Positions 13,643 to 33,151 of a stretch of DNA of 34,569 nt are shown piece by piece. Source of the stretch: Candidatus Hydrogenedentota bacterium (lineage in GTDB: Bacteria > Hydrogenedentota > Hydrogenedentia > Hydrogenedentales > SLHB01). The notes under the pieces were generated by a model. It did not search any database. It was not told the DNA's origin and worked only from the letters and a program-made list of their open reading frames with translations. The stretch's first letter is position 1. Every line of letters starts with the position of its first letter. A program made the translations under genes and the position numbers. The stretch is from assembly GCA_016209895.1 (NCBI GenBank), contig JACQVH010000285.1, forward strand, positions 1-34,569, read 5' to 3'.

Positions 13643-13736
13643 ATGTGAAGACGAGATTCTCGTCTGGACTCGGAACTCCCGAGCGGCGTGTCTCAACCAA
13701 CACGACATGTCTGCATACCAAAAACACCATCTAGGT

Positions 13737-13814
13737 GTCATTCTGAGCGCAGCGAAGAATCTCGCATACCGTGGACTTGGGCGTGAGAGATTCTTCGCCG
13801 CGCTCAGAACGACA
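13737..13814. repeat. Dispersed palindromic element, copy 1 (gtcattctgagcgcagcgaagaatctc...gagattcttcgccgcgctcagaacgac)
   Basis: Long imperfect inverted repeat; related to 23984..24071 and 24109..24189. Confidence 0.85.
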
Positions 13815-13846
13815 GATGGAGGATCGCCCTCACGAAGGAGATACCG

Positions 13847-14248
13847 ATGAAAGACAACGCAGGTTTTACACTCATCGAATTAATCCTGGTGACGATCATT
13901 ATCGGGATTCTCGCCGGGATGGTCGTAATCAATGTGGCCGGCCGCGCGGAAGAGGCTCGAGTTCGACGCGCGCACGGCGATATCGCCACCTATCAGAATG
14001 CCATTGATCTCTACGCCCTGGACCACAATGACAAATATCCAAAATCGTTGAACGAATTAATGGGTGGGAAAAGAGATTACGTCCGCAAGCTGACCAAGGA
14101 CCCCTGGGGCAATGACTACGTGGTCGTGGTTCCGGGCAAGTACCGAAAGAACAGTTATGACTTGTACTCGCGTGGTCCGGACGGGATCGCGGGCAACGGC
14201 GACGATATAACCAGTTGGAGCGACCAAGCACCCGACGCGGCCTCGTAG
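13847..14248 (+). CDS. gspG: Type II secretion major pseudopilin GspG
   Basis: GFTLIELILVTIIIGILAGMVVINVAGR; DLYALDHNDKYPKSLNEL; KDPWGNDY; SRGPDGIAGNGDDITSW. Confidence 0.95.
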   Translation: MKDNAGFTLIELILVTIIIGILAGMVVINVAGRAEEARVRRAHGDIATYQNAIDLYALDHNDKYPKSLNELMGGKRDYVRKLTKDPWGNDYVVVVPGKYRKNSYDLYSRGPDGIAGNGDDITSWSDQAPDAAS

Positions 14249-14285
14249 GATACATCCGACGCTGGCCCCGGCGGTTAGAAAAATC

Positions 14286-14786
14286 ATGCAGCCTTTCGAG
14301 CGACACGGCTTTTCCCTCCTTGAGCTAATCGTGGTACTGACGATACTCGCGGTCATGTCCGCGGCGGTAGTGCCCCTATATCGGAATTCGTTGATCCGCT
14401 CCCGCGGAAACGCCGCCCTCCAGGACCTGCTTGCCACCTTGAAGTACGCCCAGCAACGCGCGGTCACAGACACTCAAGAATATAGGGTCTACCTCAATCA
14501 CAAGACAGGTCATTACTGGGCGGCTCGCCCAGTCGTCACGAAAGAGGAGGAAATAAGCTTCGAGACCTTGGGCGAGCCGGGCACGGAGCCCGTGAAACTC
14601 CCGGAAGGCGTCAAGATGAGCCAGCCCAAGGCGCGAAAGGATCGGGACCAGGAAGCGTACTACATTAGCTTCTATCCCAGCGGCGCGTGCGACGTAGCAA
14701 CGGTCGCATTGGACTATGAGGACGGCAAGACGGTGCGAGTCCAAACAAAGGGAAAGATCGGACCCTTCGAGGTGAAAGAGCTGTGA
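14286..14786 (+). CDS. gspH: Type II secretion pseudopilin GspH-like
   Basis: GFSLLELIVVLTILAVMSAAVVPLYRN class III signal; Sec-minor pseudopilin position in operon. Confidence 0.85.
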   Translation: MQPFERHGFSLLELIVVLTILAVMSAAVVPLYRNSLIRSRGNAALQDLLATLKYAQQRAVTDTQEYRVYLNHKTGHYWAARPVVTKEEEISFETLGEPGTEPVKLPEGVKMSQPKARKDRDQEAYYISFYPSGACDVATVALDYEDGKTVRVQTKGKIGPFEVKEL

Positions 14787-15256
14787 GGCGGCCGACCACG
14801 ATACGAGGGTATATCCTGGTAGAGGCGATGGTGGCCATGGTCGTGCTCAGTCTCGGCATCTTGGCATTACGCAGCGCGCAGCAGCAGACAACCCTGGCCC
14901 GTGGTCAGGCTCGGGACTATACGCAGGCCCGATTTCTTCTCGAACGACTCATAGCCGAACTTGAAATACTGCCAATCTTACGGGAAGGGGCAAGTTCGGG
15001 CGTGTTTGAAGGCGATTTCTCACGCTTCCGTTGGTCTCGAACGGTATCCAGAGTAAGCCTTCCGGGAATGGAGCCACCAGTACAACTCTTGCCGGGAATG
15101 ATGGTGCAGGCCCCGGACGCTTTTGTCGGAAAAATCACTGCCACGGTTTTCTGGACCCGCAGCGGTCAGGAATTTCAAGAGACGGTCGAAACCTTGGTTG
15201 CTCCCGCGAAACTTCCACAGGCGGAAAATGAGATCACACTCTCCCCTACATCCTAA
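14783..15256 (+). CDS. gspI: Type II secretion pseudopilin GspI-like
   Basis: GYILVEAMVAMVVLSLGILALRSAQQQTTLARGQARDYTQARFLLERLIAELE; overlaps gspH stop. Confidence 0.82.
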   Translation: MRRPTTIRGYILVEAMVAMVVLSLGILALRSAQQQTTLARGQARDYTQARFLLERLIAELEILPILREGASSGVFEGDFSRFRWSRTVSRVSLPGMEPPVQLLPGMMVQAPDAFVGKITATVFWTRSGQEFQETVETLVAPAKLPQAENEITLSPTS

Positions 15257-15998
15257 CGGTGGATTTACGCTCGCTGAACTTATCGTAGCGAGTGCCGTTC
15301 TGGCGCTGGTCATGGGCGGAGTTTACACGGGCTTCAGTGCGTCCGTGCGCACTTGGCGCATCGGCGAAGCGGACCTGGCCGTGTATCAAGACGCCCGACT
15401 AACCTTGGGAATCGTGGCCCGGGAACTGCAATGTGTATTGCCGCAGACGGCGCACCTGTTCGAAGGCGAAGACGATGAAATCCAGTTCTACGCCCTGACC
15501 GCCCCAATGAACCTCGAAGATGGTTCTGATCCGCGAATCCTACGCATTCGGTATCGTCTCAAGCCCGATCCCAATGGCCGTGGATCGGTGTTGCTTCGTG
15601 AAGAAGCGCCCATCGAGAGTCCTCTCCCCCCGCCGCCGGTCAAGGGTCAAGAATTGGATACGAGTATTATCGAAGAAGGTCGAGAACAGTCCTTCGAATT
15701 GGTCGCCGGCGTCGAGGCCTTCGACGTGGAATATCTCTGGGCACCGTCGCCAGAACCCGGAGTTTCCACCATGTCACCATTTTCTCTGGCCCAGCCGCCC
15801 GTCATTACCATGACCGAGAATCCGATCAGGTCAGGATTGCCCCAAGGGCTGAATATCAGACTTGCCCTCTACGAGCCGAGCGCCGAAGCCGGAGTGACCA
15901 GTTATTCTACCCACCTCGTGTTCCGCGGCCCGACGACGCCGTATGACGAAGGAGAATCCGAGGCTACTTCTCCAACCCTGGGAGCCGGCGGCGTATGA
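15228..15998 (+). CDS. gspJ: Type II secretion pseudopilin GspJ-like
   Basis: ATG 15228 in-frame: MRSHSPLHPNGGFTLAELIVASAVLALVMGGVYTGFSASVRTWR. Confidence 0.82.
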   Translation: MRSHSPLHPNGGFTLAELIVASAVLALVMGGVYTGFSASVRTWRIGEADLAVYQDARLTLGIVARELQCVLPQTAHLFEGEDDEIQFYALTAPMNLEDGSDPRILRIRYRLKPDPNGRGSVLLREEAPIESPLPPPPVKGQELDTSIIEEGREQSFELVAGVEAFDVEYLWAPSPEPGVSTMSPFSLAQPPVITMTENPIRSGLPQGLNIRLALYEPSAEAGVTSYSTHLVFRGPTTPYDEGESEATSPTLGAGGV

Positions 15999-16936
15999 GA
16001 AACTCATCTCAGGGCTTTGCGCTCGTGTGTGTCTTGTGGGTCTTGGCTATTTTGACGGTCATTACCATCAGCTACGGCCATCGCGCGATGCTCGATCGCC
16101 GGGCTGCAGCCTATTCCTTGGACTATCTCCAGGCCATGCAGATGGCGCGGGGCGCGGTCGAACGAGGGATCGTGGCCATGCGCCACAAAGCATCTGTGGA
16201 TGCCGCGGCAAGAGCGTCGCGACGCTCGACGCGGGAACCGTGGCGATTCGACACTGTGGACCTCCTCGCCGAAAGGCGATTCTACTCGTTGAGCGGCGGC
16301 CAAGAATTGGAGGGGGAAGAATGCACGTACCGCCTTCGTGACGAGGAACGTCGCATTTCGCTCAACAAGAGTCCCAAAGAAGTACTGGATGAAATTGATG
16401 ACCTGAGTTTCACGGTCGTGAATGAAATCATAGACCGGCGTCGCGAGGGAACGATCTCGGGGCGACCGTCCCTCTTCGTAGCCGTGGAAGAGTTGCTCAA
16501 CTTGGACGACGTAAGCGAGTCTACGTGGTACGGCGACGAGTCGCGTCCGGGTCTGCGCGACCTGTTGACGCCGTGGGGCGACGGCCGCATCAATCTTAAT
16601 ACCGCCTCCGCGGACGTGTTGCGATGCATCCCGAATGTTCGCGGTGATCTCGTGGACGAAATCGTCGCGTACCGGGCCGGGCCGGATGGAAAACCGGATA
16701 CGGCGGACGATCAGGTGTTCAGTAGTCTTGGGGAAATCTCAGGCGTGGTCAATGCCAGCGCGGATGATATGAAGCAGTTGGAACCTTATTGCAAGCTGGA
16801 TTCGCAGTTCTTTACAATCACCGGCACGGCCACGCAACGGCAGAAGCGTGTGCGCGCAATCTGTTCAGCATTGGTACGGATCGAGGCGGAAAACTTCGAG
16901 GTGCTCCAATGGCGGGAGGGGGATTTTGGCTCGTAA
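15995..16936 (+). CDS. gspK: Type II secretion pseudopilin GspK
   Basis: GFALVCVLWVLAILTVITISYGHRAMLDRR; INLNTASADVLRCIPNV helix-hairpin-helix-type segment. Confidence 0.9.
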   Translation: MRNSSQGFALVCVLWVLAILTVITISYGHRAMLDRRAAAYSLDYLQAMQMARGAVERGIVAMRHKASVDAAARASRRSTREPWRFDTVDLLAERRFYSLSGGQELEGEECTYRLRDEERRISLNKSPKEVLDEIDDLSFTVVNEIIDRRREGTISGRPSLFVAVEELLNLDDVSESTWYGDESRPGLRDLLTPWGDGRINLNTASADVLRCIPNVRGDLVDEIVAYRAGPDGKPDTADDQVFSSLGEISGVVNASADDMKQLEPYCKLDSQFFTITGTATQRQKRVRAICSALVRIEAENFEVLQWREGDFGS

Positions 16937-18482
16937 ATCAGGAAACATCAGCATCCTGCAGATTGGCGAGCATCTCATCTCCCGGCTGCGGGTCCGTCCC
17001 AGCCTGCGTGGAGTGGAGGTACTCGACTTCGCGCAAGAACGCGGTACCTGGGCGCTCCAGGACGGCTCCCTACAATCCGCGCTAACGGCGTTCGCCCACC
17101 AGCATCGCCTCGTCGAAGATGCGGTATATGTGGTGCTCCCTCGTCATGAAGTAGCCGCCCGCATTGTTACGTTTCCTTCCCATGACCTGACTGAAATCAA
17201 AGGAATGGTCCGCCTCAGCGCGGAAGAGTACGTGCCGTATCCGGCGGAAGAGTTGGTTATAGACGAATGCATCTTGGAGAAACTGCACGGCGGCGAGGCG
17301 CGTGTTCTTGTGGTGCTGGCGCACCGCGACGTCGTCGAGGGTTACGTCCGGCTTCTGCGGCAAGCCGGGTTGGAGCCCCAGGAAATCCTGGTGAGCACCG
17401 CCTGCCTTGCGTCCGCCATGGCCGCGACCGGTGTGCTCAGGAAGGACGCTATTCCGCCGCAACAGACCGATGTCTCTCTCGTCGTGCCTGCCGCCCGGGA
17501 AACTGAACCGAGACGAGCCGCGCTGGTACATCTCTTACCGGGGGGTATCGAGATTCTGATCTTTCGCGGCAACCATTTGGAGGCGGTACGAGGCGTCGCG
17601 AACGCTCAAGATTGGATGCGCGACAGCATTCAGTCCGCAGCAGCTATAGGCGAACTCGCAAGTGAAGTGCGTGGGGCCTTGGCGTCTTTCCGCCGCGAAT
17701 TAGAAGAAAGCACCACAATCGAGTCGCTACTGGTGAGTTCTGACGTCGCGGACGCGACTGAATGGGCCAAGGCCCTCGAGCCGGAGGCCGGGCTATTATG
17801 CTCGTCCGTTCCGGCCATGGGTACTCTCGTAACCCGCGGCCAGGAGCACTTGGCCAACGCTCAGCCGTTGGCGCTGCTGGGGGCCGCCTGCGTAGCTCAA
17901 GCCCGCGCGGCCGTACCGATCAGCCTCGTGCCGGAATCGGTGCTCCACGCTCGCCAACGGCTCGCCCTGCGGCGAATCGCGCGGCGCGGCGCTCTGCTGG
18001 TCGGAGCGGTGCTTGTCGCGTGGTTTGGACTGTTCTTTCAGGCGGTAGCCAAACGAGCGCACTACGCACACGAATTGGAAGACCGCCATCACAGCATCGC
18101 GCAGGACGCGCGAGGCGTAGCCGAAAAGCACCGGCAATTGCAGGCTATCTCGCGTCAGGTGGACCGTAAAGGGACCGCCGTCGAGCTCTTGGCACGACTC
18201 TGCGAAGTGGCCCCCTCCTCCGGTTTGAACATCACGCGCGTCGTGTTTGTGCGCGGGCAGGGCGTGACCGTCGAAGGGCGCGCATTGGACGTGTCCGCGG
18301 TAGATCAATTCGCGGAGAACCTGCGGCAGTCCGGTCGTGAACGGGTGCCGCAATTCGCTCAGGCCCGTACGATCAGCACCCAAGGCCAGACCGAGCAGAA
18401 TCAAGGCGTCACCCAATTCGAAATCAGCGTTCCATTTCCGCAAATCGAGGAGTCCGAACAAGCCGAGGCCGCGGTTGAATAA
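16926..18482 (+). CDS. gspL: GspL/PilM-like T2SS actin-fold protein with fused TM/periplasmic region (TTG start)
   Basis: In-frame TTG 16926 gives MARKSGNISILQIGEHLI; PilM-like VVLPRHEVAARIVTFPSHDLTEIKGMVRLSAEEYVPYPAEELVID; C-terminal TM and PilN-like domain. Confidence 0.78.
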   Translation: MARKSGNISILQIGEHLISRLRVRPSLRGVEVLDFAQERGTWALQDGSLQSALTAFAHQHRLVEDAVYVVLPRHEVAARIVTFPSHDLTEIKGMVRLSAEEYVPYPAEELVIDECILEKLHGGEARVLVVLAHRDVVEGYVRLLRQAGLEPQEILVSTACLASAMAATGVLRKDAIPPQQTDVSLVVPAARETEPRRAALVHLLPGGIEILIFRGNHLEAVRGVANAQDWMRDSIQSAAAIGELASEVRGALASFRRELEESTTIESLLVSSDVADATEWAKALEPEAGLLCSSVPAMGTLVTRGQEHLANAQPLALLGAACVAQARAAVPISLVPESVLHARQRLALRRIARRGALLVGAVLVAWFGLFFQAVAKRAHYAHELEDRHHSIAQDARGVAEKHRQLQAISRQVDRKGTAVELLARLCEVAPSSGLNITRVVFVRGQGVTVEGRALDVSAVDQFAENLRQSGRERVPQFAQARTISTQGQTEQNQGVTQFEISVPFPQIEESEQAEAAVE

Positions 18483-19572
18483 TTGGTGGAAAAAACTCTC
18501 TAGCCGGGAGCGCAACCTTGCGTTCGCTACGCTGGTGGTCGCCATAGCTTCCGTTTTGTACTTTGCCGTCTCCTGGGCATGGGATACCGTACGGGATTTA
18601 GACGCACGCATTGACCGATTACAACAAGACGTTCTGAACTCGGTATATGAGGCTGCCCTCCGATATAGCGTCGAGACTGCGTACGTCGAAATTGCGGCGC
18701 AGCATTCCAGTAAGTGGACGCAAGAGGAAATCCATGATCGGTTGCGCCAGGAAATCTACCGGCTTGCCCAAAAGAACCCGCCGCATCCGGGCAGTAAAGA
18801 GGCCCTGGCGGGGACGACCAATCCCCAGTGGCTGCTGGAAATCCGCTCCCTCGGCGAAGGAAAGCTGGAGGACAGTGGGAGGGGTTATCGCGAGTACAAG
18901 ATTGGCTTCAAGACTCTACCTACGGATATTCAATCGGTTATCTTGTATCTATCGCGATTGCAGCAGAGTCCGCAATTGTTGCGCATTGACAATCTGGAGA
19001 TCGTTAGGCCGGTTCCGGAAACGCCGGGCGTGATAGCGACCATCGAAGTAACCCGTACCGTGGTGGATAGCGCCATCGAGGGAGTGTCCGAAACCCCCAC
19101 GATATCCCCAATACTAGCCGGCGCCGGCAATTTGAGTCGAAACCCGGGATTCGAAGAATGGGACCGCCTCCAAGGTAAGTTCCCCCAATGGGATTCCGCA
19201 AGCTGCCGGTTGCTCGAGGACACGGAACATGCAACTGAAGGGTCGGCTTGCGTGCGCGTCGAGACGGCCGGCGACGGGGCGGCGTTCTACCAGCAACAGG
19301 AACTCGTGGCCGGGAACGTCTATGAATTGACGATGGATATTACGGCATCCGCACCTATGCGGCTGGCAGTAATGAATGACCGCGAGAAAGCGATTCTGCC
19401 GGAAACTCAGGACATAGTCGGAGACGGTCTCCCGCGGCAGTATTACTGTGAGCTTCGTGTCCCTGGAACGCCCGGCACCAAAGCAAGTCTCCGTGTTCCA
19501 TGTATCATCATGTCCCAACAAGGCTCCGTGGCATACGTAGACAATGTACTCTTGATGGAACGCAAGAACTAG
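18475..19572 (+). CDS. GspM-like inner-membrane protein with C-terminal CBM4/9-like (galactose-binding fold) domain (TTG start)
   Basis: NNWWKKLSSRERNLAFATLVVAIASVLYFAVSWAW at N-terminus; C-terminal NLSRNPGFEEWDRLQGKFPQWDS...GSACVRVE...YQQQELVAGNVYELTMDITA...VAYVDNVLLME resembles the CBM_4_9 pattern. Confidence 0.7.
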   Translation: MNNWWKKLSSRERNLAFATLVVAIASVLYFAVSWAWDTVRDLDARIDRLQQDVLNSVYEAALRYSVETAYVEIAAQHSSKWTQEEIHDRLRQEIYRLAQKNPPHPGSKEALAGTTNPQWLLEIRSLGEGKLEDSGRGYREYKIGFKTLPTDIQSVILYLSRLQQSPQLLRIDNLEIVRPVPETPGVIATIEVTRTVVDSAIEGVSETPTISPILAGAGNLSRNPGFEEWDRLQGKFPQWDSASCRLLEDTEHATEGSACVRVETAGDGAAFYQQQELVAGNVYELTMDITASAPMRLAVMNDREKAILPETQDIVGDGLPRQYYCELRVPGTPGTKASLRVPCIIMSQQGSVAYVDNVLLMERKN

Positions 19573-19574
19573 GA

Positions 19575-20063
19575 ATGATAAGAATCCTTTTCACGTTCGG
19601 TTGGTGCGCTTTGGCAGTGGCGGTTGCGCTGCTGATCCTCGGCGTTTTCACGGATCCAGTTAGAGACCAGCGCGTGTGGCTTGAGACCGAGCTGACCAAC
19701 GTGGCGCCACCGGCTATCACTTTCGACACGGCTCCGGACGTGGACTCGACCGCGCTTCAACGGACCATTACCGGCAAAGCCAATCTTTGGCGCGGCCTCG
19801 TAGCGCCACCCAAACAGGCGGCTACAGCCCCGAATTTCGGTAACGAAATGGCGGGGGTGGTGATTACGCGAGACCAGATCGGTACGGGAGACCAGGTTCA
19901 GGTACGGGTGCGGGTGGGTAACGACACGCGGGGTCAGTGGATGGGTAAGGGCGCTGTCGTCAAAGGATGGACAATTGTTGAAATCTTACCGCGTGAAGTG
20001 AAGTTCTCGAAAACGCAGAATGGTACCGAGTATACTGGCGTTCTTCCGCGAGGGAACAGATGA
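19575..20063 (+). CDS. Small membrane-anchored T2SS-operon protein, GspC-like by position
   Basis: MIRILFTFGWCALAVAVALLILGVFTDP TM segment; lies between the gspM-like gene and gspD; GspC identity is positional inference. Confidence 0.55.
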   Translation: MIRILFTFGWCALAVAVALLILGVFTDPVRDQRVWLETELTNVAPPAITFDTAPDVDSTALQRTITGKANLWRGLVAPPKQAATAPNFGNEMAGVVITRDQIGTGDQVQVRVRVGNDTRGQWMGKGAVVKGWTIVEILPREVKFSKTQNGTEYTGVLPRGNR

Positions 20064-20075
20064 CCTTGATCGGCC

Positions 20076-20119
20076 TTTGCGCTCTAGAGGAAGACGTGTC
20101 AGCGTTGGGAGAGCGCAAA
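20076..20119 (+). promoter_or_regulatory. Perfect 10-bp stem hairpin between the C-like gene and gspD
   Basis: tttgcgctct (20076-20085) and agagcgcaaa (20110-20119) are exact reverse complements. Confidence 0.6.
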
Positions 20120-20179
20120 ACGTTATAAGTGGGAGTAGTCGCCGCGGGATAATGGTGGCTGCAAGCGAGAAGGAACTAT

Positions 20180-22543
20180 ATGAAGCCATCTTTTAACACC
20201 ATTCTGCACGGAATCGTATTCGCCTTCTTGCCTTCTGTTCTCGCCGTAGCGCAATTACAGTCGCCGACGAGTCCGGCACCCGAAACTGACGTAACCGGCC
20301 TCGCGGAGCAAGCCTTTCGTGGTGGCACCGCAACACAGCGTTATCCCGGACGCAAAGGTGCGACCGCACCGACTCCGAAGACCGGCACGCCTGAGCGCGA
20401 GCGACCTCGTTCGACCGTGCGAACCATTCAGCCGGGTACGAGCGGCCCGGTGCATACCACGGGCCAAGGCGCATTTGAGCCGGTCCTGAATAACAAAATC
20501 GAGTACGGCGACATCCCGGAAATGGGCGAGCTAATTTCCCTCGCCGCCACCGATCAGCCCATTAAAGTCCCCCAGTTACTGGATACCTTGGCCGTAGCGA
20601 CGAATTGGAACATTGTGGCCTCGGAAACACTCGAGAACAAGAGTGTTCGCTTCTGGATCAATCAAGTTACCGCGAAGCAAGCCCTCGATGTTCTCCGATT
20701 CAACGGCATCTATTACGAATTCATCCCGGAGACTAAATTCCTCTACGTGATGACGCAGGAGGAATATTTACGGCAAGAGCACGGCGCCATTGAACATTCG
20801 GAATTCGCAATCAAGCACGCCGAGGTGGCGGACATGGAAGCCATCCTCACTTCGTTGCTCTCGTCTTCCGGCCGGATCATCTCCGATCCGCGCACGGGGC
20901 GCATTCTGGTCTGGGACACCGAGGCGAACCTGAAAGCGATGCAAGAGGCCGTCGTTCGGCTCGACGTGCAACTTGAGCCGCGCGTATTCGCCCTAAAATT
21001 CGTGTCCGCCGAGAGTTTGCTCGAGAGCATCAGCAGCCTCCTGACGGAACGCGGTCTGGCGCAAGCGGACCCTCGCACCAACACGCTGGTCATCAGCGAT
21101 CTGCCTTCACGTCTCGACCAAATTGCCGCGGTCTTGGAGGCACTGGACAAGAAGGTGGAAACGAAGACCTGGACCCTCAGCTACGCCGACCCCAAGAGTA
21201 TAGTGGAACGCCTGGAGAATATCGTTCCGGAAGAAATGGGCATCGTAACAGTGGATGAAGATACACACCAAGTCAGCGCCACTGCGATCCCCGAGCGATT
21301 GACGGAGATTGACGAGTTAATCAAAGCCTGGGACAAGAAGCGAAAACAGGTCGAGATTGAAGCCTACTTGGTGGCGGCTTCAACCGAGATTACGCGAAAC
21401 CTGGGTGTTGACTGGTCCTACTTTGATCAACATTCCGGCGGTCCCTTTGCCATCCAGAGCGGTCCCAACGTGCCCGATTACTCGGCGATACCGGAAAGCG
21501 GGCAGCGTTTGACCATCGGGACGTTGCCGTTCCAGGTCCCGTTGCGAAATCCGCTCACGAGCGCGCCAATTCTGGATATCAATGGAAACGCGATACCGGA
21601 TGATGAATTCCGTGGGAACCGTATTTCGGTCGTGCTCAACTACCTGGATTCCAAAGGCGATGTGACGATTCTTTCACGCCCGCGTGTAACCGTCATGGAC
21701 GGTGAAGAAGCCAACTTCCAAAACACCGAAGACCGGCCGTATCAAGAGGGCGGCTATTCGCAGTTCACGGGCACCAGCGTGCTTGATCCCAGTTTCAACC
21801 GGGTCATCCCGCTGCGCGTGCAGTTTATCAAGGTGGGCACCATTCTCAAAGTCACCCCGTTGATCGGCGAGGAAGCGAATATCCAAATGAAAATCTCTGC
21901 GGAAGACAGTACGGCCGAGAACGTAACCGTCACCGTTGGCGACCAGAGGAGCACCATTCCACAGAAGCGCGAGAATAAGACCGAAACCCAGGTGCTGGTG
22001 CACGACGGACAAACGTTGGTGATCGGCGGCTTGCGCTCCGCCACCATCGAGGATCAAGTGCAGAAGGTTCCGTTCCTGGGCGACGTACCGTTCCTGGGCC
22101 GCTTATTCAAAAACACCGAAAAAGACCATCGGCACCGGGAGTTGCTCATCTTCATTACGCCGACATTGGTGGATGAGTACACGCGTCCCGAAGCCGAGCG
22201 CCTGGCCGACTTGGAAGGGACCGTCTCCGAGACTCTGCGTCACTCTCAGAAACCTATGCTCGAGCGGATGGAAAGCCGACTCTCCCGAGGACGAAACGAA
22301 ATCGGCGTCTCCATCGGCGAGAGCGGGAGCATCCATTCCAAGGGGAACCTAGTGACTCTGGAAGACTTGGAAAAAGTGTTCGGCGAGGTCCAATCCTCCC
22401 CCAAGACCACTGCGGTCGTGATCCGCAAACATCCCAATGCGCCCGAAAATGTGAGCGCGACCATCGCGGAACTAGCCAAAACGGCGGGGTTGGAAGTCGA
22501 ATTCGACGAGAAGATGGTACCCTTTGTTCCCGCCTCGCCATAG
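20180..22543 (+). CDS. gspD: Type II secretion secretin GspD (787 aa)
   Basis: Signal peptide; N0/N1 domains; secretin core VTILSRPRVTVMDGEEANFQNTEDRPY, RENKTETQVLVHDGQTLVIGGL, VPFLGDVPFLGRLFKNTEKDHRHRELLIFITPTLV. Confidence 0.96.
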   Translation: MKPSFNTILHGIVFAFLPSVLAVAQLQSPTSPAPETDVTGLAEQAFRGGTATQRYPGRKGATAPTPKTGTPERERPRSTVRTIQPGTSGPVHTTGQGAFEPVLNNKIEYGDIPEMGELISLAATDQPIKVPQLLDTLAVATNWNIVASETLENKSVRFWINQVTAKQALDVLRFNGIYYEFIPETKFLYVMTQEEYLRQEHGAIEHSEFAIKHAEVADMEAILTSLLSSSGRIISDPRTGRILVWDTEANLKAMQEAVVRLDVQLEPRVFALKFVSAESLLESISSLLTERGLAQADPRTNTLVISDLPSRLDQIAAVLEALDKKVETKTWTLSYADPKSIVERLENIVPEEMGIVTVDEDTHQVSATAIPERLTEIDELIKAWDKKRKQVEIEAYLVAASTEITRNLGVDWSYFDQHSGGPFAIQSGPNVPDYSAIPESGQRLTIGTLPFQVPLRNPLTSAPILDINGNAIPDDEFRGNRISVVLNYLDSKGDVTILSRPRVTVMDGEEANFQNTEDRPYQEGGYSQFTGTSVLDPSFNRVIPLRVQFIKVGTILKVTPLIGEEANIQMKISAEDSTAENVTVTVGDQRSTIPQKRENKTETQVLVHDGQTLVIGGLRSATIEDQVQKVPFLGDVPFLGRLFKNTEKDHRHRELLIFITPTLVDEYTRPEAERLADLEGTVSETLRHSQKPMLERMESRLSRGRNEIGVSIGESGSIHSKGNLVTLEDLEKVFGEVQSSPKTTAVVIRKHPNAPENVSATIAELAKTAGLEVEFDEKMVPFVPASP

Positions 22544-23532: not shown

Positions 23533-23901
23533 ATGAAACTCAGGCGAATGTTCATTGCATTAGGCTTGGTGGGGGTAGCGATTGCTACGGGCGTGTTCAC
23601 CGCGTATGCCAGTTATTTCAGTAGCCTGGCTACGGGCACGAACGGCGGCGTTTATGTGGGAATCGGTACCGATACGAATCCAGGGACGCGAACGCTGCAA
23701 TTCGCCGAACCGGGAGCATTGGGCCAGGTAGAAGGGCTAATCTTGTTTGGGAACAACAACGTCAATCAGATTAGCACGGCAGAAACGCCGGCCGGTTATG
23801 AGACCATGGAGTTGAAGGCCACCGAGGTTCGACTTGCAACGCCCAATAACGCCCAAGTTATCGCTAGCGGCAAAGATGTGATCGTTCAGCTTGGGCAATA
23901 A
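23533..23901 (+). CDS. Small exported protein (~122 aa) of unknown function
   Basis: In-frame ATG 23533 with preceding gggagggt RBS: MKLRRMFIALGLVGVAIATGVFTAYA signal/TM followed by GGVYVGIGTDTNPGTRTLQF. Confidence 0.75.
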   Translation: MKLRRMFIALGLVGVAIATGVFTAYASYFSSLATGTNGGVYVGIGTDTNPGTRTLQFAEPGALGQVEGLILFGNNNVNQISTAETPAGYETMELKATEVRLATPNNAQVIASGKDVIVQLGQ

Positions 23902-24108: not shown

Positions 24109-24189
24109 TGTCATTCTGAACGGAGTGAAGAATCTCGCATACCAAAGACTGGTGTACAAGAGATTCTTCGCTGGCGCTCAGAATGACAG
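24109..24189. repeat. Dispersed palindromic element, copy 3
   Basis: tgtcattctgaacggagtgaagaatctcgcatacc...aagagattcttcgctggcgctcagaatgaca. Confidence 0.85.
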
Positions 24190-24339: not shown

Positions 24340-27300
24340 ATGGCGGGACGCACGGCAGTAGCGACACGGGGTATAATAGTGTTGGTGACGGTCATGACGT
24401 TGGGAATTCAGCGCGCAAGTAGCGGGGCAGCGAGGCCGACCGGCTACGATGCCGTAGCGCCGGACTGGCAGGAGCGGCCGGCGGAGGCGACCTACTACGG
24501 CTGGCGCGGAGTGCGAACACCGCTGTATCTATCCTCCGGACGCGTCGGCATCACGTTCGAGCCGGGAGTCACAGCGGACGCGATGCGCAGCGCCCTGACT
24601 ACCGCGCCGACCTTGAACGCGGGCACGGTCACATTGGACTTCGAACGGTTGGACTATGCCCGTACCTTCGTGGTGGACACCGCGGCGGGAACGCCGACGG
24701 AATCCATCACCGGTATCGTGCAAGCGCTGCGCGCCTTGCCCGGCGTCGAGTCCGTGAACCCGGTATTTGAGACCTCACCCGGCAAAGAGTCGTTGCTTAC
24801 CGATTATCTCTACATCAACGTTTCCTCAGCGACGCCCGAATCGCAAGTGCAGAGCCTGATCACGGCCAAGCGTCTGGAAGTCTTCAAGCGCAACGACTAC
24901 AGCGAGATCGGCATTATCGGCTACCGGCTCAAAGTCCCCAAAGCCACGCGCGCCGCCACGGGCAAGCACGCCCTGGACCTCGCCAATGAGCTGCAAAGCG
25001 ACCCACTCGTTCTGGAATCGGCGCCGACCTTCGCGCCGCTGTACAATCTTTTCACCGACATAGTCCCGAATGATCCGGTCTATCCGGCACCCAATCAATA
25101 TCCCGAAGACCTGGGTGCGCGCGTTGGTCAGTGGCACCTTCCGCGCATTAGGGCGGAGCAGGCCTGGGGTCTCGTCTATGGCCAAACCGGGCTCTATTAC
25201 TGGCCCGCATGTGGGAGCACTTCTCCTATTGAAAACGACCCGCCTTCGTGTGACCCGCCAGCCGGCACACCCCGGATCGTTGTTGCCGGGCTGGACGACG
25301 GCGTTTCGCTGGATTACATCACTGCGTCGCGGACCTACAACGGTCAGTCGTACACCATTCCGGGACCCGGTCCCGGCCCCGATAATGGTCTCTATATTCT
25401 GGATAACTCGAAGAACGAGAACTTGCTCGGTCACGTGGACTTGAATTCGAATCAATGGTTGAACTTGGTGGAAATTCAGGGCACGTTGAATGCTGATGAC
25501 GATGGCAATGGAAAGGATGACGATTACTTCGGCTGGGACTTTGTCGGGAAAGACCCCTTTGTTGATACCGAAGACGACCGTATACCATTCCCGGATTTTC
25601 AGAGCAATCCGATCCTGGCCACGAGCCGTGGTCACGGCAATGGAACTATCTCTCGGGCTGCCGCGCGCGGCCACAATTACAAGGGCGTTGCCGGAGTGTG
25701 TTGGAGCGCCCGAATCATGCCGATACGCTACCACATTAACACGGCATCTAACGACAACACCCGGAGTTACGATGTGTATTATGCCGGGCGCGGTGAGGAC
25801 GCAATTAACTACGCCGTAGACACCGGTGCAGACGTGCTCTCGATCATGATGCCTCTGGACGTTTACGATCCGGGTATTTACAACGCCGTCAAGAGCGCGC
25901 GAAAGGCGGGCCGGGTGATCGCGGTACCCGCGGGCAACGACAGTTGGTCCATGGATGCGTATCCCATCTATCCGGCCGTATGGCCGGAAGTGATTGCGGT
26001 GGGGGCTTCGACCAAGGTTGAAGACCCGGAAAGACGCAGCAGCTATTCCAGCTATGGCTGGGCGCTCGACGTGGTAGCTCCATCGAGCGACGCGTTAACG
26101 CTCAACAACCACGCGGGCGCCTCCATGGGCCGCCAAGTGTTTGACGACCAGGGGAACCTGCTCTATACTGATCCTCCCGCTGAACCATACCACCGCTACG
26201 GAGCCGGGGGCGGGACATCTTCCTCGACGCCCACCACAGCAGGCTTGGCCGCCTTAGTATTGACCGTGAATCCTGACCTCTGCCCCGCCGAGGTTCAGGC
26301 CATCTTGCAATGGTCAGCCCATGATTTCGTATACACCTATGGTAGCGAGGAAGCGGCGGCCGGTCGAGATTATTACACAGGTTGGGGCCGGCTGGATGCC
26401 GAGCAGGCAGTTTTACTGACTCAGAAAGCCCGGTTTGCCTTCAAGAATCCAGAAGGTCGCACCGTAATGTCCTGGGACGAGGACGGTCGATTCGTTATGG
26501 ATGGAGTGCTGAAACAGAACGCCACCCCGGCCGAACTGACGCCGCTCGACACCGTCGGTGAGTTCATTCTTAAGAACGCTGTGGGAACGGTGGTTGCGCG
26601 GTTGGACCCGACTTGGACGAGCCCCTATCAGGGCGGCGCGTACCATCCCGCGACTTTATACCTCAATGGACGCATTCAAACCACTTGGCAACCTCCAAAT
26701 CCGGGGGTGGCGGCGTTCAAGATCAATAACCCCACCGGAACCACGGTCGCCTATATTGATGCGGCTGGGAACATGTACCTGAACCTACAACAGAAGTTTA
26801 TAACCGCGAGTGCGGACGCCAACGGGACCTACACGGTGAACGCACCGTTGGGTAGCGAAGGTATTGTCGATTTTGCATACGACAATGGGAACGGCCTGCA
26901 GACGGCTATTACGGCGGTACCTGTCCACAGCATCATCATCGTGTTTCCCGGACCAAACAACCAGCCTTATAATCCGATCGGTTTTGATGGCAAGAATGTG
27001 GTGGTCCGTTCAAGCAATCCCTATGACGCGACCACCGTGGCAAACACGATCATCCAGGGAACCGCTTCGGCACGCTGCGTAACGTTTGCTGGGACGGAGA
27101 CGACGGACTGTGCCTTGATCGGCTTTACGATCAAGGGTGGACATCAGTCTATCGGAGCCGGAATCCTGGGATCGTACAATCCGAGTCCGATCAATGGCAC
27201 CAAGGCCCGTATTGAGAACAATGCGATCTACGGCAATGTCGCGACACTGTGGGGCGGGGCCATCGCCTATTGTCATGGGGTGATAGCGTATAACGTGATC

Positions 27301-28161
27301 GGGAAGATTGGCCAAGGAAACACCGCCCAGCACGGTGGCGGCCTTTACATCTGCAATGGCCGCATTTGGCGAAACAAGATCATGTACAACCAGGCGACGG
27401 CGTCGAACGGCGAGGGCGGTGGACTGCTCCAATGCGACGGCGATGTCTGGCAGAACTATATCGCGCGCAACACAGCGGTCTATGGCGGCGGACTTTCTCA
27501 ATGTGACGGGTATACCCGCAGCAACCTCATTTATGCCAATACGGCCACGACCCAAGGCGGTGGACTGTACAATTGCGACAAACTCCTGTCCGGCGACCCG
27601 AATTACGGTGACGCGCTCGACGACTCACTCGGCACCGCGCCGAGCCGCGGCATGATCGAGCACAACACGATCGTCTCCAACGCGGTCACGGTCGCGAGTA
27701 AGTTTGGCGGCCTTTACGACTGTGACTCGACGGCCCAGCGCCTGCGTAACAACATTGTTTATTGGAACACCTCGGCCGGCAGCGAGACTAACGCCCAAGT
27801 AGACGGCGGCTCGGAAGCCCCCCGGTACTGCTGCATCGAAGGCTGGCCCGCCGGAAACGGCAACATTTCCAGCAACCCGACTTTTGTCAACTACGTTCCC
27901 AATCCTACCGCGCCGTGGGAAGAGTTCCTGCATCTACGGTCGGATTCGCCATGTATCGATAAAGGGGAGACACCGAGGAAAGACAACGATCCTAACAAAC
28001 CGTACCGATTTCGCGATTTCGACCATCGAAGCGGACCGGTGGACGGCGACAATGATCAAGAGCACACAATCTTGCGTGATATGGGCGCGGATGAGTATCC
28101 CACGCCGTCTCCCGGTATGTTTACATACTGGTGGGAAGGTTTTGGCAGTTCGCCAGAATAG
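24340..28161 (+). CDS. Secreted S8 (subtilisin-like) protease fused to KN-repeat linker and right-handed beta-helix (1273 aa)
   Basis: Signal peptide; Asp region IVVAGLDDGVS; His region SRGHGNGTISRAAARGHNYKGVAGVC; VIAVPAGND oxyanion region; Ser region GGGTSSSTPTTAGLAALVL; then repeated GGGLxxCxG...NxIxxNTA beta-helix rungs. Confidence 0.92.
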   Translation: MAGRTAVATRGIIVLVTVMTLGIQRASSGAARPTGYDAVAPDWQERPAEATYYGWRGVRTPLYLSSGRVGITFEPGVTADAMRSALTTAPTLNAGTVTLDFERLDYARTFVVDTAAGTPTESITGIVQALRALPGVESVNPVFETSPGKESLLTDYLYINVSSATPESQVQSLITAKRLEVFKRNDYSEIGIIGYRLKVPKATRAATGKHALDLANELQSDPLVLESAPTFAPLYNLFTDIVPNDPVYPAPNQYPEDLGARVGQWHLPRIRAEQAWGLVYGQTGLYYWPACGSTSPIENDPPSCDPPAGTPRIVVAGLDDGVSLDYITASRTYNGQSYTIPGPGPGPDNGLYILDNSKNENLLGHVDLNSNQWLNLVEIQGTLNADDDGNGKDDDYFGWDFVGKDPFVDTEDDRIPFPDFQSNPILATSRGHGNGTISRAAARGHNYKGVAGVCWSARIMPIRYHINTASNDNTRSYDVYYAGRGEDAINYAVDTGADVLSIMMPLDVYDPGIYNAVKSARKAGRVIAVPAGNDSWSMDAYPIYPAVWPEVIAVGASTKVEDPERRSSYSSYGWALDVVAPSSDALTLNNHAGASMGRQVFDDQGNLLYTDPPAEPYHRYGAGGGTSSSTPTTAGLAALVLTVNPDLCPAEVQAILQWSAHDFVYTYGSEEAAAGRDYYTGWGRLDAEQAVLLTQKARFAFKNPEGRTVMSWDEDGRFVMDGVLKQNATPAELTPLDTVGEFILKNAVGTVVARLDPTWTSPYQGGAYHPATLYLNGRIQTTWQPPNPGVAAFKINNPTGTTVAYIDAAGNMYLNLQQKFITASADANGTYTVNAPLGSEGIVDFAYDNGNGLQTAITAVPVHSIIIVFPGPNNQPYNPIGFDGKNVVVRSSNPYDATTVANTIIQGTASARCVTFAGTETTDCALIGFTIKGGHQSIGAGILGSYNPSPINGTKARIENNAIYGNVATLWGGAIAYCHGVIAYNVIGKIGQGNTAQHGGGLYICNGRIWRNKIMYNQATASNGEGGGLLQCDGDVWQNYIARNTAVYGGGLSQCDGYTRSNLIYANTATTQGGGLYNCDKLLSGDPNYGDALDDSLGTAPSRGMIEHNTIVSNAVTVASKFGGLYDCDSTAQRLRNNIVYWNTSAGSETNAQVDGGSEAPRYCCIEGWPAGNGNISSNPTFVNYVPNPTAPWEEFLHLRSDSPCIDKGETPRKDNDPNKPYRFRDFDHRSGPVDGDNDQEHTILRDMGADEYPTPSPGMFTYWWEGFGSSPE

Positions 28162-28227
28162 CCGTGAGATCAATTGATGCTGCACATTGCCATTGTAGGA
28201 AGCATTTGTGAATATCGGACGTAACTT

Positions 28228-29787
28228 ATGAAAAACCACGTTTGGCAGTCATCAGGATGCACGGTTTGTCGCGACTCCCTAGTCAAATGGACGGTCCCTC
28301 TTGTAGGCATCCTTCTTGTGACCAGCGACGTGACGGCGGCGGTATGGTACGTGGATAGGGACAACCTGTCGGGAATGCAGGACGGGTTACGTTGGGCCAC
28401 GGCTTACAACGCGATCCAGCCAGCGATTGATGCAGCTTACGCAGGCGGGGGTGGCGAAGTTTGGGTGGCCGAAGGCATTTACGATGAGCGACGGACGACT
28501 TATGTGTACCCTCGCATACCAAGTGTCAATAACGGGGCATTGCTGTTGAAGTCGGGTATTGAACTCTATGGGGGATTCTCCGGGATTGAAACCGTGCGCG
28601 AGGAGCGGGACTGGAGAATGCATCCTACGGTAATTGATGGAAGCACTGCCCGCGACGGTTATCCGAGCTATCAGGTGGTTTGGGTCGAGAGTCGCGCCAC
28701 GATATTGGACAGCGTCATTGTCCGGGGCGGTCGAGCAGAAGGGGACTACGCGGAAATGAGCAGTGGCGGTGGCATCGGCGGCTATGATCCTGCAGTTACC
28801 GCCAACTGCACGATTAAAGAGAACTTCGCCGTCGCTCCGGGCGCCGGCATGGTTATCGGTGAGGGAACCCCGGTTATTGTCAACTGCACGTTTCAAAATA
28901 ATGAATCCATGCAGAGCGGTGGCGCGGTCGACCTCGCGAACAGCGCGTCGCGACCCGAGATCGTCGGCTGTTGGTTCATCGGAAATACGTCGCAATCGGG
29001 CGGCGGCGGTGCCATCGGTGGATTTGGCGGGCATCTCACGGTGCGCAATTCCGTGTTCGTAGGCAATCGCGCGGGAACAATACCCGGAGGGGACGGATAC
29101 GGGGGCGCCATTCACAAGTTTTTTGACGTGATGACTTTAGAAAACTGCGTATTTTTCGGGAACCACGCTTCCACTGAGGGGGCCGCGCTTAGAACCTCCG
29201 GGTCATTCAACCCGGAAATGGGGGAGTACGATACGCGCATCTACCTACATAATTGTACGTTCTGGGCCAATGTGGCCGGCGAGGGCAGCGCGGTGTTGCA
29301 CAACACGGGCGCGGTAGTAAACGTTCGGAATTCCGTTTTCTGGAACAACACGCCGCTGCAGATCGTGAACAACGTGACAGACTACCCGCCGCTCTTCTCG
29401 GTGCATCATTGCTTGGTGCAGGGCGGTTATGAGGGCGAAGGCAACCTTGATCTCGACCCGCAGTTTGTGGACGCCGTTAACGGCGACGTGCGCCTTCGCC
29501 CGACGTCGCCGTGTATTGACGTCGGAACGGTGGACTTCGCCCCGGCCGCGGACATCCGCGGCGTGGCGCGTCCACAGGGCGCGGGCGTGGATATCGGCAC
29601 GTACGAATACCAGGCCGGCGACGAACTCGATATAGACGCCAGCGGCGGCACGGACGCGGTAGACGTCCAACTGGTCATCAACGGCGCCCTCGGCCTCGAC
29701 TCCCGCGCAAGCTCCGACGTAGACGGCAACAGCGTCGTAGACGCGATAGACGTGCAACTCGTGATCAACGCCGCGCTGGGATTGTAG
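28228..29787 (+). CDS. Secreted right-handed beta-helix protein with C-terminal dockerin-like pair (519 aa)
   Basis: AAVWYVDRDNLSGMQDGLRWATAYNAIQPAIDAAYAGGGGEVWVAEGIYDE; polymorphic Gly-rich rungs; two DxDxxxxxDxxDVQLVINxALGL loops at C-terminus. Confidence 0.88.
   Translation: MKNHVWQSSGCTVCRDSLVKWTVPLVGILLVTSDVTAAVWYVDRDNLSGMQDGLRWATAYNAIQPAIDAAYAGGGGEVWVAEGIYDERRTTYVYPRIPSVNNGALLLKSGIELYGGFSGIETVREERDWRMHPTVIDGSTARDGYPSYQVVWVESRATILDSVIVRGGRAEGDYAEMSSGGGIGGYDPAVTANCTIKENFAVAPGAGMVIGEGTPVIVNCTFQNNESMQSGGAVDLANSASRPEIVGCWFIGNTSQSGGGGAIGGFGGHLTVRNSVFVGNRAGTIPGGDGYGGAIHKFFDVMTLENCVFFGNHASTEGAALRTSGSFNPEMGEYDTRIYLHNCTFWANVAGEGSAVLHNTGAVVNVRNSVFWNNTPLQIVNNVTDYPPLFSVHHCLVQGGYEGEGNLDLDPQFVDAVNGDVRLRPTSPCIDVGTVDFAPAADIRGVARPQGAGVDIGTYEYQAGDELDIDASGGTDAVDVQLVINGALGLDSRASSDVDGNSVVDAIDVQLVINAALGL
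29627..29784 (+). other. Dockerin-like tandem Ca-loop domain (copy 1)
   Basis: DIDASGGTDAVDVQLVINGALGL...DVDGNSVVDAIDVQLVINAALGL. Confidence 0.75.
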
Positions 29788-29788
29788 C

Positions 29789-29808
29789 GTCCGACCTCTG
29801 CGTCGGAC
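29789..29808 (+). terminator. Palindrome directly after stop codon (gtccgac-ctctgc-gtcggac), possible terminator or dispersed repeat
   Basis: 7-bp perfect inverted arms 2 bp after the stop; no U-tract follows. Confidence 0.45.
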
Positions 29809-29842
29809 GAGAACCTTGGCGAGCCGGCGTTGGCAAGGATTT

Positions 29843-29869
29843 ACGCCCGCCGCAGAGGGCGGGCGCTAC
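29843..29869. repeat. GC-rich palindrome, inverted copy of 23019..23045
   Basis: acgcccgccgcagagggcgggcgctac. Confidence 0.8.
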
Positions 29870-29890
29870 CGGTGACCGTGGACTGGGCAT

Positions 29891-29984
29891 CGTGCTGTAG
29901 GTTTACGTAGACGCGACGTCCTCGGCGCGTTTTATCGGGAGGCGCATGGACAACGCGACGAGGACGTCGCGTCTACACAGCACG
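29891..29984. repeat. Large inverted repeat with 18-bp perfect arms plus 8-bp outer arms
   Basis: gtagacgcgacgtcctcg (29907-29924) / cgaggacgtcgcgtctac (29959-29976); outer cgtgctgt / acagcacg. Confidence 0.85.
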
Positions 29985-30008
29985 TGGATGCGGCGCAGAC
30001 CCAGGTTG

Positions 30009-30064
30009 GTAGTGCGCCCGTCAGGGCGTGATGGATGGGCTCGAACGCCTGACGGCGTCACTAC
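30009..30064. repeat. Imperfect inverted repeat (gtagtgcgcccgtcagggcgt / acgcctgacggcgtcactac)
   Basis: Direct reading; arms nearly complementary. Confidence 0.75.
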
Positions 30065-30204
30065 GAACGAGGCCGAGTCGCGGAGTTGTGTCAAATTCGA
30101 AGGCCGGTGTGATAGCGCATTGGCTGCGGTGGGCCGCCAGAATCTTGGTCGTGGAAAGGGGTTCTGTCGTCCCGAGGGGACTTATAATGGCCGGACGACT
30201 GGGA

Positions 30205-30224
30205 CCCAGCGATAAATCGCTGGG
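30205..30224. repeat. Perfect palindromic hairpin cccagcga-taaa-tcgctggg
   Basis: Direct reading. Confidence 0.75.
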
Positions 30225-30276
30225 CTATGTTCGTTGGTCCTTATGGGACCTTTTCCCCGAAATTGGGAGATGATCG

Positions 30277-31590
30277 GTGCAGAAGGCATCGTTGGGGCCG
30301 ATTGTCGAACACAGCGTGATTGTCGTCTATCCGAACTACGATGCCGGCTGGAATCCGGTCGCGACGCCGTTTAGTCCGATTACGTTTTCGGGTGTAGACG
30401 TGGTGGTGCGTTCGAACGACCCGGCCGACGAGAATGTCGTGGCGGCGTGCATCATCCAGGGGACGAGTTCGTTGCGTTGTGTCACCTTTGACGGCGATGA
30501 GACGGCGGATTGCGCCTTGATCGGCTTCACGATCAAGGGCGGCCACCAATCGCCCGGTTCGGGAATTCTGGGCGCGACCAACGGCAGCCCTACCGTGGGT
30601 ACCAAGGCGCGCATCGAATACAACGTAATCTACGGCAATGGGACCGCGAGCACTGGAAACGGCGGCGCGATCGCCTATTGCCACGGTCTGATCCACGGCA
30701 ACATCATCGGCAAGGCTGGGAGCGGCAACGCCAATCTGGCCCAGTACGGCGGTGGCCTGTACGTATGCAACGGCACGATCCGCCGGAATAAGATTTGGTA
30801 CAACACGGCCTCCGCGGCCGGCGGCGGCCTGTACAACTGCGATGGGACCTTCACCTCCGGTGTGGACCAATTCAACCAGCCAATCCCTGCGGCAATTGCC
30901 GAAAACTACATCGCCCACAACACGGCGTACAACGGGGGCGGGATGGCGGCGTGTGACGCCAGGATTCGCAGCAATCTGATCTATGCTAACACGGCCAACG
31001 GCCAGGCGGGCGGGATGTATAACTGCGACGCCATCGCGCTCGAACAGAACACCATTGTCTCCAACACCGCGCCAGGCGGTACGGGCAAGATGGGCGGTCT
31101 GTGGGGTTGTAACCCCGGGCTCGGACCGGCACCAGACTACGTGTCTTGGCTCCGCAACAATATCATCTATTACAACACCGCCGGTGGTGCAACTACGGGT
31201 AAGCAACTCGACACCACTTCGTCCACCCCTGAGTACTGCTGCATCCAGGAATGGAGCGGGAATGGTCGAAACAATATCGTTGCGGACCCGGCTTTTCGGA
31301 GTAATTATCCGATCGCGCCCTGGGAAGAGTTCCTACACCTCAAAAACAAAAAGGACACGCCGCCCCAGCAGTCGCCATGTGTTGACGCGGGGTATACGGA
31401 AACCTATACCGACCAACAGGGAAAGACTCAGTTGAAGAGATTCTATGATTTCGACCACCAGGCCAGCCCGATCGATGGGACAGAAAACGGAACTATCGAA
31501 CGCGATATCGGTGCAGACGAAGCCCCGACACCACCGCCTGGGAGTCAGACTTACTGGTGGGAAATATTTGGTCCAGCACCAGAGCCGTGA
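30277..31590 (+). CDS. Beta-helix protein, truncated paralog of the C-terminal part of the S8 protease (GTG start, no signal peptide); possible pseudogene
   Basis: GVDVVVRSNDPADENVVAACIIQGTSSLRCVTFDGDETADCALIGFTIKGGHQSPGSGILG aligns with KNVVVRSSNPYDATTVANTIIQGTASARCVTFAGTETTDCALIGFTIKGGHQSIGAGILG of 24340..28161; TGA at 30271 closes the frame upstream. Confidence 0.75.
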   Translation: MQKASLGPIVEHSVIVVYPNYDAGWNPVATPFSPITFSGVDVVVRSNDPADENVVAACIIQGTSSLRCVTFDGDETADCALIGFTIKGGHQSPGSGILGATNGSPTVGTKARIEYNVIYGNGTASTGNGGAIAYCHGLIHGNIIGKAGSGNANLAQYGGGLYVCNGTIRRNKIWYNTASAAGGGLYNCDGTFTSGVDQFNQPIPAAIAENYIAHNTAYNGGGMAACDARIRSNLIYANTANGQAGGMYNCDAIALEQNTIVSNTAPGGTGKMGGLWGCNPGLGPAPDYVSWLRNNIIYYNTAGGATTGKQLDTTSSTPEYCCIQEWSGNGRNNIVADPAFRSNYPIAPWEEFLHLKNKKDTPPQQSPCVDAGYTETYTDQQGKTQLKRFYDFDHQASPIDGTENGTIERDIGADEAPTPPPGSQTYWWEIFGPAPEP

Positions 31591-31591
31591 T

Positions 31592-33151
31592 ATGGATAGC
31601 AACATGATTTGGAGATCGCATGGCCTTAATCAACAGACAAGGTTGAGAACTGCGGCTATCGCGCTAGGGAATTTTGTGGTCGTTGTCTCGTTGTTCTTCT
31701 CGGTTTTTTCAACCGGTATCCACGCAGGGGTCTGGTATGTAGATGTGGATAATACGTCTGGGATCGAGGACGGAAGAGCGTGGGGCACGGCATTCCGAAC
31801 GATTCAACCTGCAATAGATTGGGCCGTCGAACCGAGCGGTGGCGAGGTCTGGGTCGCGGAAGGCGTGTACAGCGAAGATCGGGCGAGGTCGTCGCCCGAC
31901 GGCTCTTTCGACGGCGCTTTAAGGGCGCGCGCCGGTGTCGAGCTTTACGGCGGGTTCACTGGAGGAGAAACTGAAAGGGGTCAACGTGATTGGCAAGCTC
32001 ATGTTACAGTCATTGACGGTAGTCAGGCGCGCCGAGGACAACCCGCTTATCACGTGATAAAAAGTGTCGGCGACGAGACCGTGCTCGACGGCTTTACCGT
32101 TCAAGGTGGCAACGCAAACGGACTATATGCTGATGACAGAATTACCGGCGGAATCGGTGTCATCGGGGCGGCTGTAATTGCAAATTGTATCATTCGCGAC
32201 AACCGATCGGATCTGAGCGTGGGAGGCATCGGTATTGGTGGAGCTGAGCCGCTCATTGTCAACTGCACGTTTGTAAACAATCAGACCAGTCAGAGTGGCG
32301 GCGCTATAGACCTGGCAAACGCCTTCTCTCGTCCTACGATCATTGGGTGTTTGTTCATCGGAAACCGCAGCGGCAGCGCGGGCGGCGCGATCGGCGGCGG
32401 CTTTGGTGGAGACCTCGTGGTGCGAGACTCGATTTTCCTCAATAATGAGAGCGGTTTCGGTGGTGCGATAGGTAAATTCTCTGAGGATCTGACGCTCGAG
32501 AATTGCCTGTTTATCGGTAATCATGGTTGGACCGGCGGTGCCGTGTCCACCGGTGGCGAGTACGAGTGGGAACTGGGTGTGTACGGTACCCATGTCTCGA
32601 TTAGAAATTGTACCTTCTTCGCTAACGTCGCGGCTGAAGGGAGCGGGGCAGTTCACAACGGCGGCGCAGTCACTACCGTCTGGAATTCCATTTTCTGGAA
32701 CAACACGCCGTTGCAGATCGTGAACAATGTCACAGCGTTCCCGCCGCCGTTCTCGGTGCATCATAGCCTGGTCCAGGGCGGCTATGAAGGCGAAGGCAAT
32801 CTCGAACTCGACCCACAGTTTGTAGACGCCATCGCCGGCGATGTGCGCCTGCGGCCCACGTCGCCGGCGATTGACGCGGGCACCGCTGTGGACGCCCCGG
32901 CGGCGGATATCCGCGGCGTGGCGCGTCCACAAGGCGCGGGCGTGGATATCGGCGCGTACGAATACCAAACCGGCGACGAACTGGACATAGACGCCAGCGG
33001 CGGCACGGACGCCGTGGACGTCCAACTCGTGATCAACGGCGCCCTCGGCCTCGATTCCCGCGCAAGCTCCGACGTAGACGGCAACAGCGTCGTAGACGCG
33101 ATAGACGTGCAACTCGTGATCAACGCCGCGCTGGGAAAGTATGAAGTATGA
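31592..33151 (+). CDS. Secreted right-handed beta-helix protein with C-terminal dockerin-like pair; paralog of 28228..29787
   Basis: In-frame ATG 31592; TM/signal NFVVVVSLFFSVFSTGIHAGVWYVDVDNTSGIEDGRAWGTAFRTIQPAIDWA; dockerin-like pair at C-terminus. Confidence 0.88.
   Translation: MDSNMIWRSHGLNQQTRLRTAAIALGNFVVVVSLFFSVFSTGIHAGVWYVDVDNTSGIEDGRAWGTAFRTIQPAIDWAVEPSGGEVWVAEGVYSEDRARSSPDGSFDGALRARAGVELYGGFTGGETERGQRDWQAHVTVIDGSQARRGQPAYHVIKSVGDETVLDGFTVQGGNANGLYADDRITGGIGVIGAAVIANCIIRDNRSDLSVGGIGIGGAEPLIVNCTFVNNQTSQSGGAIDLANAFSRPTIIGCLFIGNRSGSAGGAIGGGFGGDLVVRDSIFLNNESGFGGAIGKFSEDLTLENCLFIGNHGWTGGAVSTGGEYEWELGVYGTHVSIRNCTFFANVAAEGSGAVHNGGAVTTVWNSIFWNNTPLQIVNNVTAFPPPFSVHHSLVQGGYEGEGNLELDPQFVDAIAGDVRLRPTSPAIDAGTAVDAPAADIRGVARPQGAGVDIGAYEYQTGDELDIDASGGTDAVDVQLVINGALGLDSRASSDVDGNSVVDAIDVQLVINAALGKYEV
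32982..33138 (+). other. Dockerin-like tandem Ca-loop domain (copy 2)
   Basis: DIDASGGTDAVDVQLVINGALGLDSRASSDVDGNSVVDAIDVQLVINAALG. Confidence 0.75.

Follow-up and report, generated by a model that had tools for sequence, protein, structure and literature searches.

The window, the whole 34,569-nt stretch of DNA analysed here, belongs to a 5.34-Mb draft metagenome assembly of 312 contigs and carries on its forward strand two consecutive pairs of genes for beta-helix proteins. The first pair consists of A1 (24340..28161, 1273 aa), with a signal peptide, an S8 subtilase domain, short repeats, a beta-helix and a C-terminal YWWE motif, and B1 (28228..29787, 519 aa), in which a signal peptide and a beta-helix precede a choice-of-anchor Q domain and, at about 29629-29772, a dockerin-like tail with two loops. 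The second consists of A2 (30277..31590, 437 aa, GTG start), a predicted beta-helix-only paralogue of A1 residues 863-1273, and B2 (31592..33151), a B1 paralogue that has the same four parts, its dockerin-like tail lying at about 32984-33136. All four open reading frames lie where the original prediction had placed them; for B2 the mechanical ORF runs from 31445, and the start at 31592 was chosen as it leaves a signal peptide. The signal-peptide-like N-termini of A1, B1 and B2 were read by eye, and A2 has none. Between the pairs, on the same strand, lie a spacer block with two hairpins (29788..29869) and a further spacer (29870..30276), largely composed of dispersed hairpin repeats with genome-wide matches, that ends just 5' of the A2 start.

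Upstream of A1, also on the forward strand, is a 122-aa ORF for a small secreted protein (23533..23901) with a signal-peptide-like N-terminus. A Pfam search assigned it to no family, and a homologue stands upstream of the S8-bearing A gene on contig C22 (blastp 30% over 136 aa, E 2.4e-9). Still further upstream, Pfam matches outline a type II secretion/type IV pilus-like cluster (10717..22543, forward strand) that comprises a T2SSE ATPase (10717-12453), T2SSF (12356-13642), a PilM/PilN-like region (16848-18482), a sub-threshold T2SSM-like match (18337-19572) and a secretin (20180-22543). An intergenic hairpin repeat beginning TGTCATTCTGAGCGCAGCGAAGAATCTCGCA occurs in three copies (13736-13814, 23984-24044 and 24109-24169), the last two just 5' of A1. 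No RNA families were found within the window.

Residues 313-683 of A1 match the Pfam subtilase family (PF00082, E 1.5e-26, 93.9 bits against a cut-off of 21.8), and its profile matches include thermitase and other subtilisin-like proteases. The catalytic motif residues are D319, H432 and S627, and the triad columns are invariant in three S8-bearing paralogues. B1 and B2 both exceed the cut-off of 25 for choice-of-anchor Q proteins (NF041518), with 48.8 bits (6e-13) and 60.5 bits, respectively. Their description as beta-helix/dockerin-like proteins stands insofar as the tails are real: direct reading of the translations reveals two calcium-loop motifs of the DxDxxGxxxxxD type, DIDASGGTDAVD and DVDGNSVVDAID. 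The dockerin profile (PF00404) nevertheless scores 18.0 and 18.3 bits, below its cut-off of 22.9. A structure model of B2 was too poor for use (mean pLDDT 44.8). The B-type dockerin-like tail occurs at about 75 loci of the source genome, which suggests a large docking proteome.

The second unit as a truncated tandem copy

Both members of the second pair are homologous to their counterparts in the first. Residues 863-1273 of A1 and 12-436 of A2 are identical at 230 of 456 positions of a gapped alignment (50-51%, E 8e-126), and B1 and B2 at 309 of 484 (64%, E 0). Generic similarity among Gly-rich beta-helix proteins, an explanation raised with the original prediction, does not account for these values: cross pairs of A and B reach 21-25% identity at most, against 51% for A1/A2 and 64% for B1/B2. 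At the DNA level, a single alignment joins 26964-29786 to 30366-33141 with 62.7% identity over 2918 columns. Because this homologous block spans the border between the A and B genes, the gene pair was copied as one unit. Landmarks are offset from unit 1 to unit 2 by 3355-3379 nt in B and by about 3384-3408 nt in A, so that the earlier estimate of ~3.36-3.39 kb was roughly right, if slightly low.

The tandem duplication of a two-gene unit is thus borne out by protein and DNA homology of both pairs. The homology of A2, claimed for the C-terminal ~400 aa of A1, is confined to A1 863-1273, and the second copy does lack the protease, PF00082 being found in A1 only. Together, these data support a secreted two-gene module that was duplicated in tandem, with the protease missing from the second copy. 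A2 begins where the beta-helix does and lacks the S8 domain, the linker and the signal peptide; no Pfam family was found in it. Unit 2 is a tandem copy truncated at its 5' end, comprising the last third of A and the entire B. A partial tandem duplication starting inside A accounts for the missing part, and the later domain loss that had been proposed is unnecessary. Likewise, the idea of a duplicated secreted two-component module is right in that the pair was duplicated, but with no signal peptide on A2, unit 2 is not an intact module.

Recurrence of the array and its history

The same architecture is found elsewhere in the source genome. The end of contig C22 (reverse complement) and the start of contig C287 share an exact 30-nt overlap across which the reading frame stays open; combined, they hold a small secreted ORF, an S8-bearing A gene, a B gene, an S8-less A gene and a second B gene. 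Contig C47 carries an S8-bearing A gene followed by B up to the contig end, and contigs C73 and C168 begin within an A gene and continue into B. Past its B gene, C73 encodes 40 residues matching A1 741-780 (E 2.6e-6), and is probably a third junction from B to an S8-less A. The 5' end of the second A differs by locus: A2 starts at the beginning of the beta-helix, the second A of C287 about 60 residues deeper into it and that of C73 in the linker. A one-off event is rejected by this recurrence at a second and probably a third locus, the truncation point differing from one locus to the next. The assembly breaks inside repeats of the A/B family, and the numbers of units at these other loci are uncertain.

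C168 and C73 are 99.5% identical over their first 200 nt and then diverge steadily (L047:1-400, L048:1-400). Their S8 parts are absent from the six S8 matches of the assembly and are probably an unassembled shared repeat. Beside the C287 array lies a 688-aa ORF in which sigma-70-like domains are fused to an extracellular solute-binding domain (L045:5433-7499).

A match to A was found in 8 of 98 other genomes. Among other genera, one has an S8-bearing A gene followed by the start of a B gene (PUOI01000180.1, Ca. Hydrogenedentota), and another has an S8-bearing A gene without a following B. The synteny check suggested at the outset thus recovers the pair in another genus, next to the paralogous loci of the source genome. 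A narrower profile search for relatives returned mostly generic S8 proteins outside Hydrogenedentota.

Phylogenies group the A copies by locus. A1 and A2 are joined with support of 96/92 and the A copies of C22 and C287 with 89/93; treating the second copies as orthologues (a clade of A2 and the C287 copy) is rejected (AU p 8e-7). For the beta-helix part of B, B1 and B2 are joined (95/97). Of the two C287 copies, C287a groups with B1/B2 and not with C287b (82/90), though a pairing of C287a with C287b is not rejected (AU p 0.22). In the B tail, pairing is strictly by locus (100).

Silent sites were compared at fourfold positions of codons sharing their first two bases. Within the B pairs, 31-36% of these sites are the same in the helix, a share that rises to 79-83% in the tail (Fisher 2.5e-7 to 2.8e-10). 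Tails of different loci agree at 56-68%, and part of the tail excess is therefore common to the whole tail class. Protein-level selection alone does not predict the step in silent identity from helix to tail, and this homogenisation of B 3' ends within each locus indicates recombination or gene conversion. A patch in the A copies of C22 and C287 has 26 of 28 fourfold sites equal, with lower flanks. To describe the units simply as diverging, as had been done, is therefore inaccurate, recombination having apparently gone on after the duplication.

The block at 29788..29869 shares 83% identity with the spacer that follows the first B of C287. In the whole genome, its first hairpin is found only behind the first B of each of these two loci; its second is a dispersed repeat of about 25 copies. 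Further dispersed repeats fill 29870..30276, one of them ending about a dozen bases 5' of the A2 start, and the hairpin at 29905-29980 has a predicted energy of -49.2 kcal/mol (z -8.0). On C287, the hairpin almost directly adjoins the truncated A. Repeat-associated breakpoints are likely, though the dispersed-hairpin spacer may postdate the rearrangement rather than have caused it.

Two histories may apply: either each locus underwent its own tandem duplication, or a single ancestral array was followed by conversion inside the loci. The sequence trees favour independent duplications, whereas the unique hairpin spacer after the first B, common to both loci, favours the ancestral array. Under the latter, an arrangement of S8-A, B, A' and B would predate the split of the window and C22/C287 loci and would have been reworked by gene conversion within each. 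We consider this quite possible, if somewhat short of probable. It would explain a hairpin unique to the same position at both loci, in an 81-nt block 83% identical, as well as the patchy silent-site identity within loci and the grouping of the C287a helix with B1/B2, weakened as that is by the AU result. It would also require conversion over nearly the whole A helix, given that the A copies pair by locus with the alternative strongly rejected, and the hairpin may be left over from what once flanked a single unit on its 3' side.

The domain loss originally envisaged, in which a full unit was duplicated in tandem and a deletion of ~2.6 kb then removed the signal peptide, S8 domain and linker of A2, is a more doubtful prospect. 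Separate deletions would give the differing 5' endpoints seen across loci, and with 44 of 48 family-conserved columns retained in A2 the truncation could be recent. Against this, no protease relic was found in the 489-nt spacer 5' of A2 (tblastn best E 0.72; blastn no match), and a deletion adds one event per locus relative to partial duplication.

Coding status of A2

The GTG start of A2 lies 7 nt after a GGGAG, and no promoter or terminator consensus was found in the spacer before it. Its stop codon lies 1 nt before the start of B2, and B2 has no evident Shine-Dalgarno sequence; translational coupling of A2 and B2 is therefore plausible. A structure model of A2 has pLDDT values mostly of 60-86 over about residues 11-280 and is unreliable beyond 300. 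A fold search with it gave beta-helix lyases and related folds as the best PDB matches, none at E < 0.001.

Might A2 be a decaying pseudogene fragment with no role? We lean against this reading while granting it some weight. A2 is 5'-truncated, without a signal peptide or recognised promoter, and its branch is longer than that of A1 (0.62 against 0.35). On the other hand, its 437 codons contain no stop or frameshift although the fourfold sites shared with A1 approach saturation (39 same, 74 different), the conserved columns are retained, and substitutions relative to A1 follow a coding pattern (dN 0.36, dS 3.3). In simulations, random substitution at 20% of sites left the A2 frame free of stops in 0.15% of trials. 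The intact frame counts as an argument only if the truncation is old: in that case selection has kept A2, whereas A2 may be a relic if the truncation is recent. Probably the A2 product is cytoplasmic, or else A2 is important mainly through translation running into B2.

That unit 2 is an assembly chimera of strain variants is very improbable: the source is indeed a draft MAG of 312 contigs in which contigs of the A/B family end inside shared repeats, but unit 2 lies inside a 34.6-kb contig, the DNA of A1/A2 and B1/B2 differs by about 37%, far past strain variation, and the identical architecture stands at another locus.

Possible export, attachment and comparison with known systems

The tandem duplication at this locus is real, recurrent and mosaic; it affects a family of secreted proteins and is a recognisable type of gene-family evolution. 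Our overall reading, which we consider probable, is of a multi-locus family of exported pairs in which unit 2 is a truncated tandem copy and recombination among copies and at hairpins shaped the locus. Such recombination would have exchanged or converted, within each locus, the 3' ends of B and, at other loci, patches of A as well.

The T2SSE, T2SSF and secretin genes directly upstream suggest that A1, B1 and B2 would be exported by Sec and then released by the type II secretion system encoded there. The S8 domain of A1 would cleave protein while its beta-helix might bind substrate, matrix or a partner. The two calcium loops of B could tie it to surface proteins that bear cohesins; B would then sit docked on the surface, with A at work next to it as a protease. 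Cohesins (PF00963) have six matches in the source genome, five of them over the cut-off, and were found in 57 of 67 genomes searched. A protein of ~380-395 aa with a signal peptide, one cohesin, a Pro/Thr/Ala-rich linker and a C-terminal membrane segment occurs in four genomes of the family (L060:820-1965, reverse strand; also L145, L153 and L154). It is a candidate cell-surface receptor for the many dockerin-like tails.

The 'planctosome', a non-cellulosomal cohesin-dockerin protease complex proposed for freshwater Planctomycetes, also ties extracellular proteolysis to cohesin/dockerin modules in a Gram-negative phylum, and both proposals are hypotheses (PMC6461901). In the planctosome, docking modules sit on the peptidases themselves (M12B, M14), whereas here partner B bears one and the S8 protein has no dockerin; the phylum is also different. 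The Hydrogenedentota papers searched contain no mention of a cohesin-dockerin surface system. Our analysis documents in this phylum a recurrent architecture of S8-beta-helix and beta-helix-dockerin genes with truncated tandem copies, and connects it with a broader putative surface system of cohesins and dockerins there.

In silent-cassette variation (e.g. pilS/pilE), unexpressed truncated donors alter an expressed gene within a population. The arrays resemble such systems in having 5'-truncated, apparently promoterless copies beside a complete gene and conversion-like tracts. They differ in that B2 has its own signal peptide and no dedicated recombination signal was identified. We find it improbable that the truncated second copies are silent donors, diversifying the surface beta-helix by gene conversion in arrays with conserved ends while protease and docking parts stay constant; if true, the arrays would serve an uncultured lineage as a diversification system.

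Individually, the proteins have familiar relatives. Like Peptidase S8 exoproteases, A1 has a signal-peptide-like N-terminus and an S8 domain that contains the D/H/S motif residues, but has linker repeats and a beta-helix fused C-terminally, and A2 and the second A of C287 are protease-less. B1 and B2 pass the curated cut-off for choice-of-anchor Q proteins, but carry a dockerin-like tail behind that domain. With chlamydial polymorphic membrane proteins (PF02415), the profile match is sub-threshold (16.4 against 20.6, B2 only) and no autotransporter barrel was found, although a Gly-rich beta-helix, FxxN-type repeats and multi-copy families are common to both.
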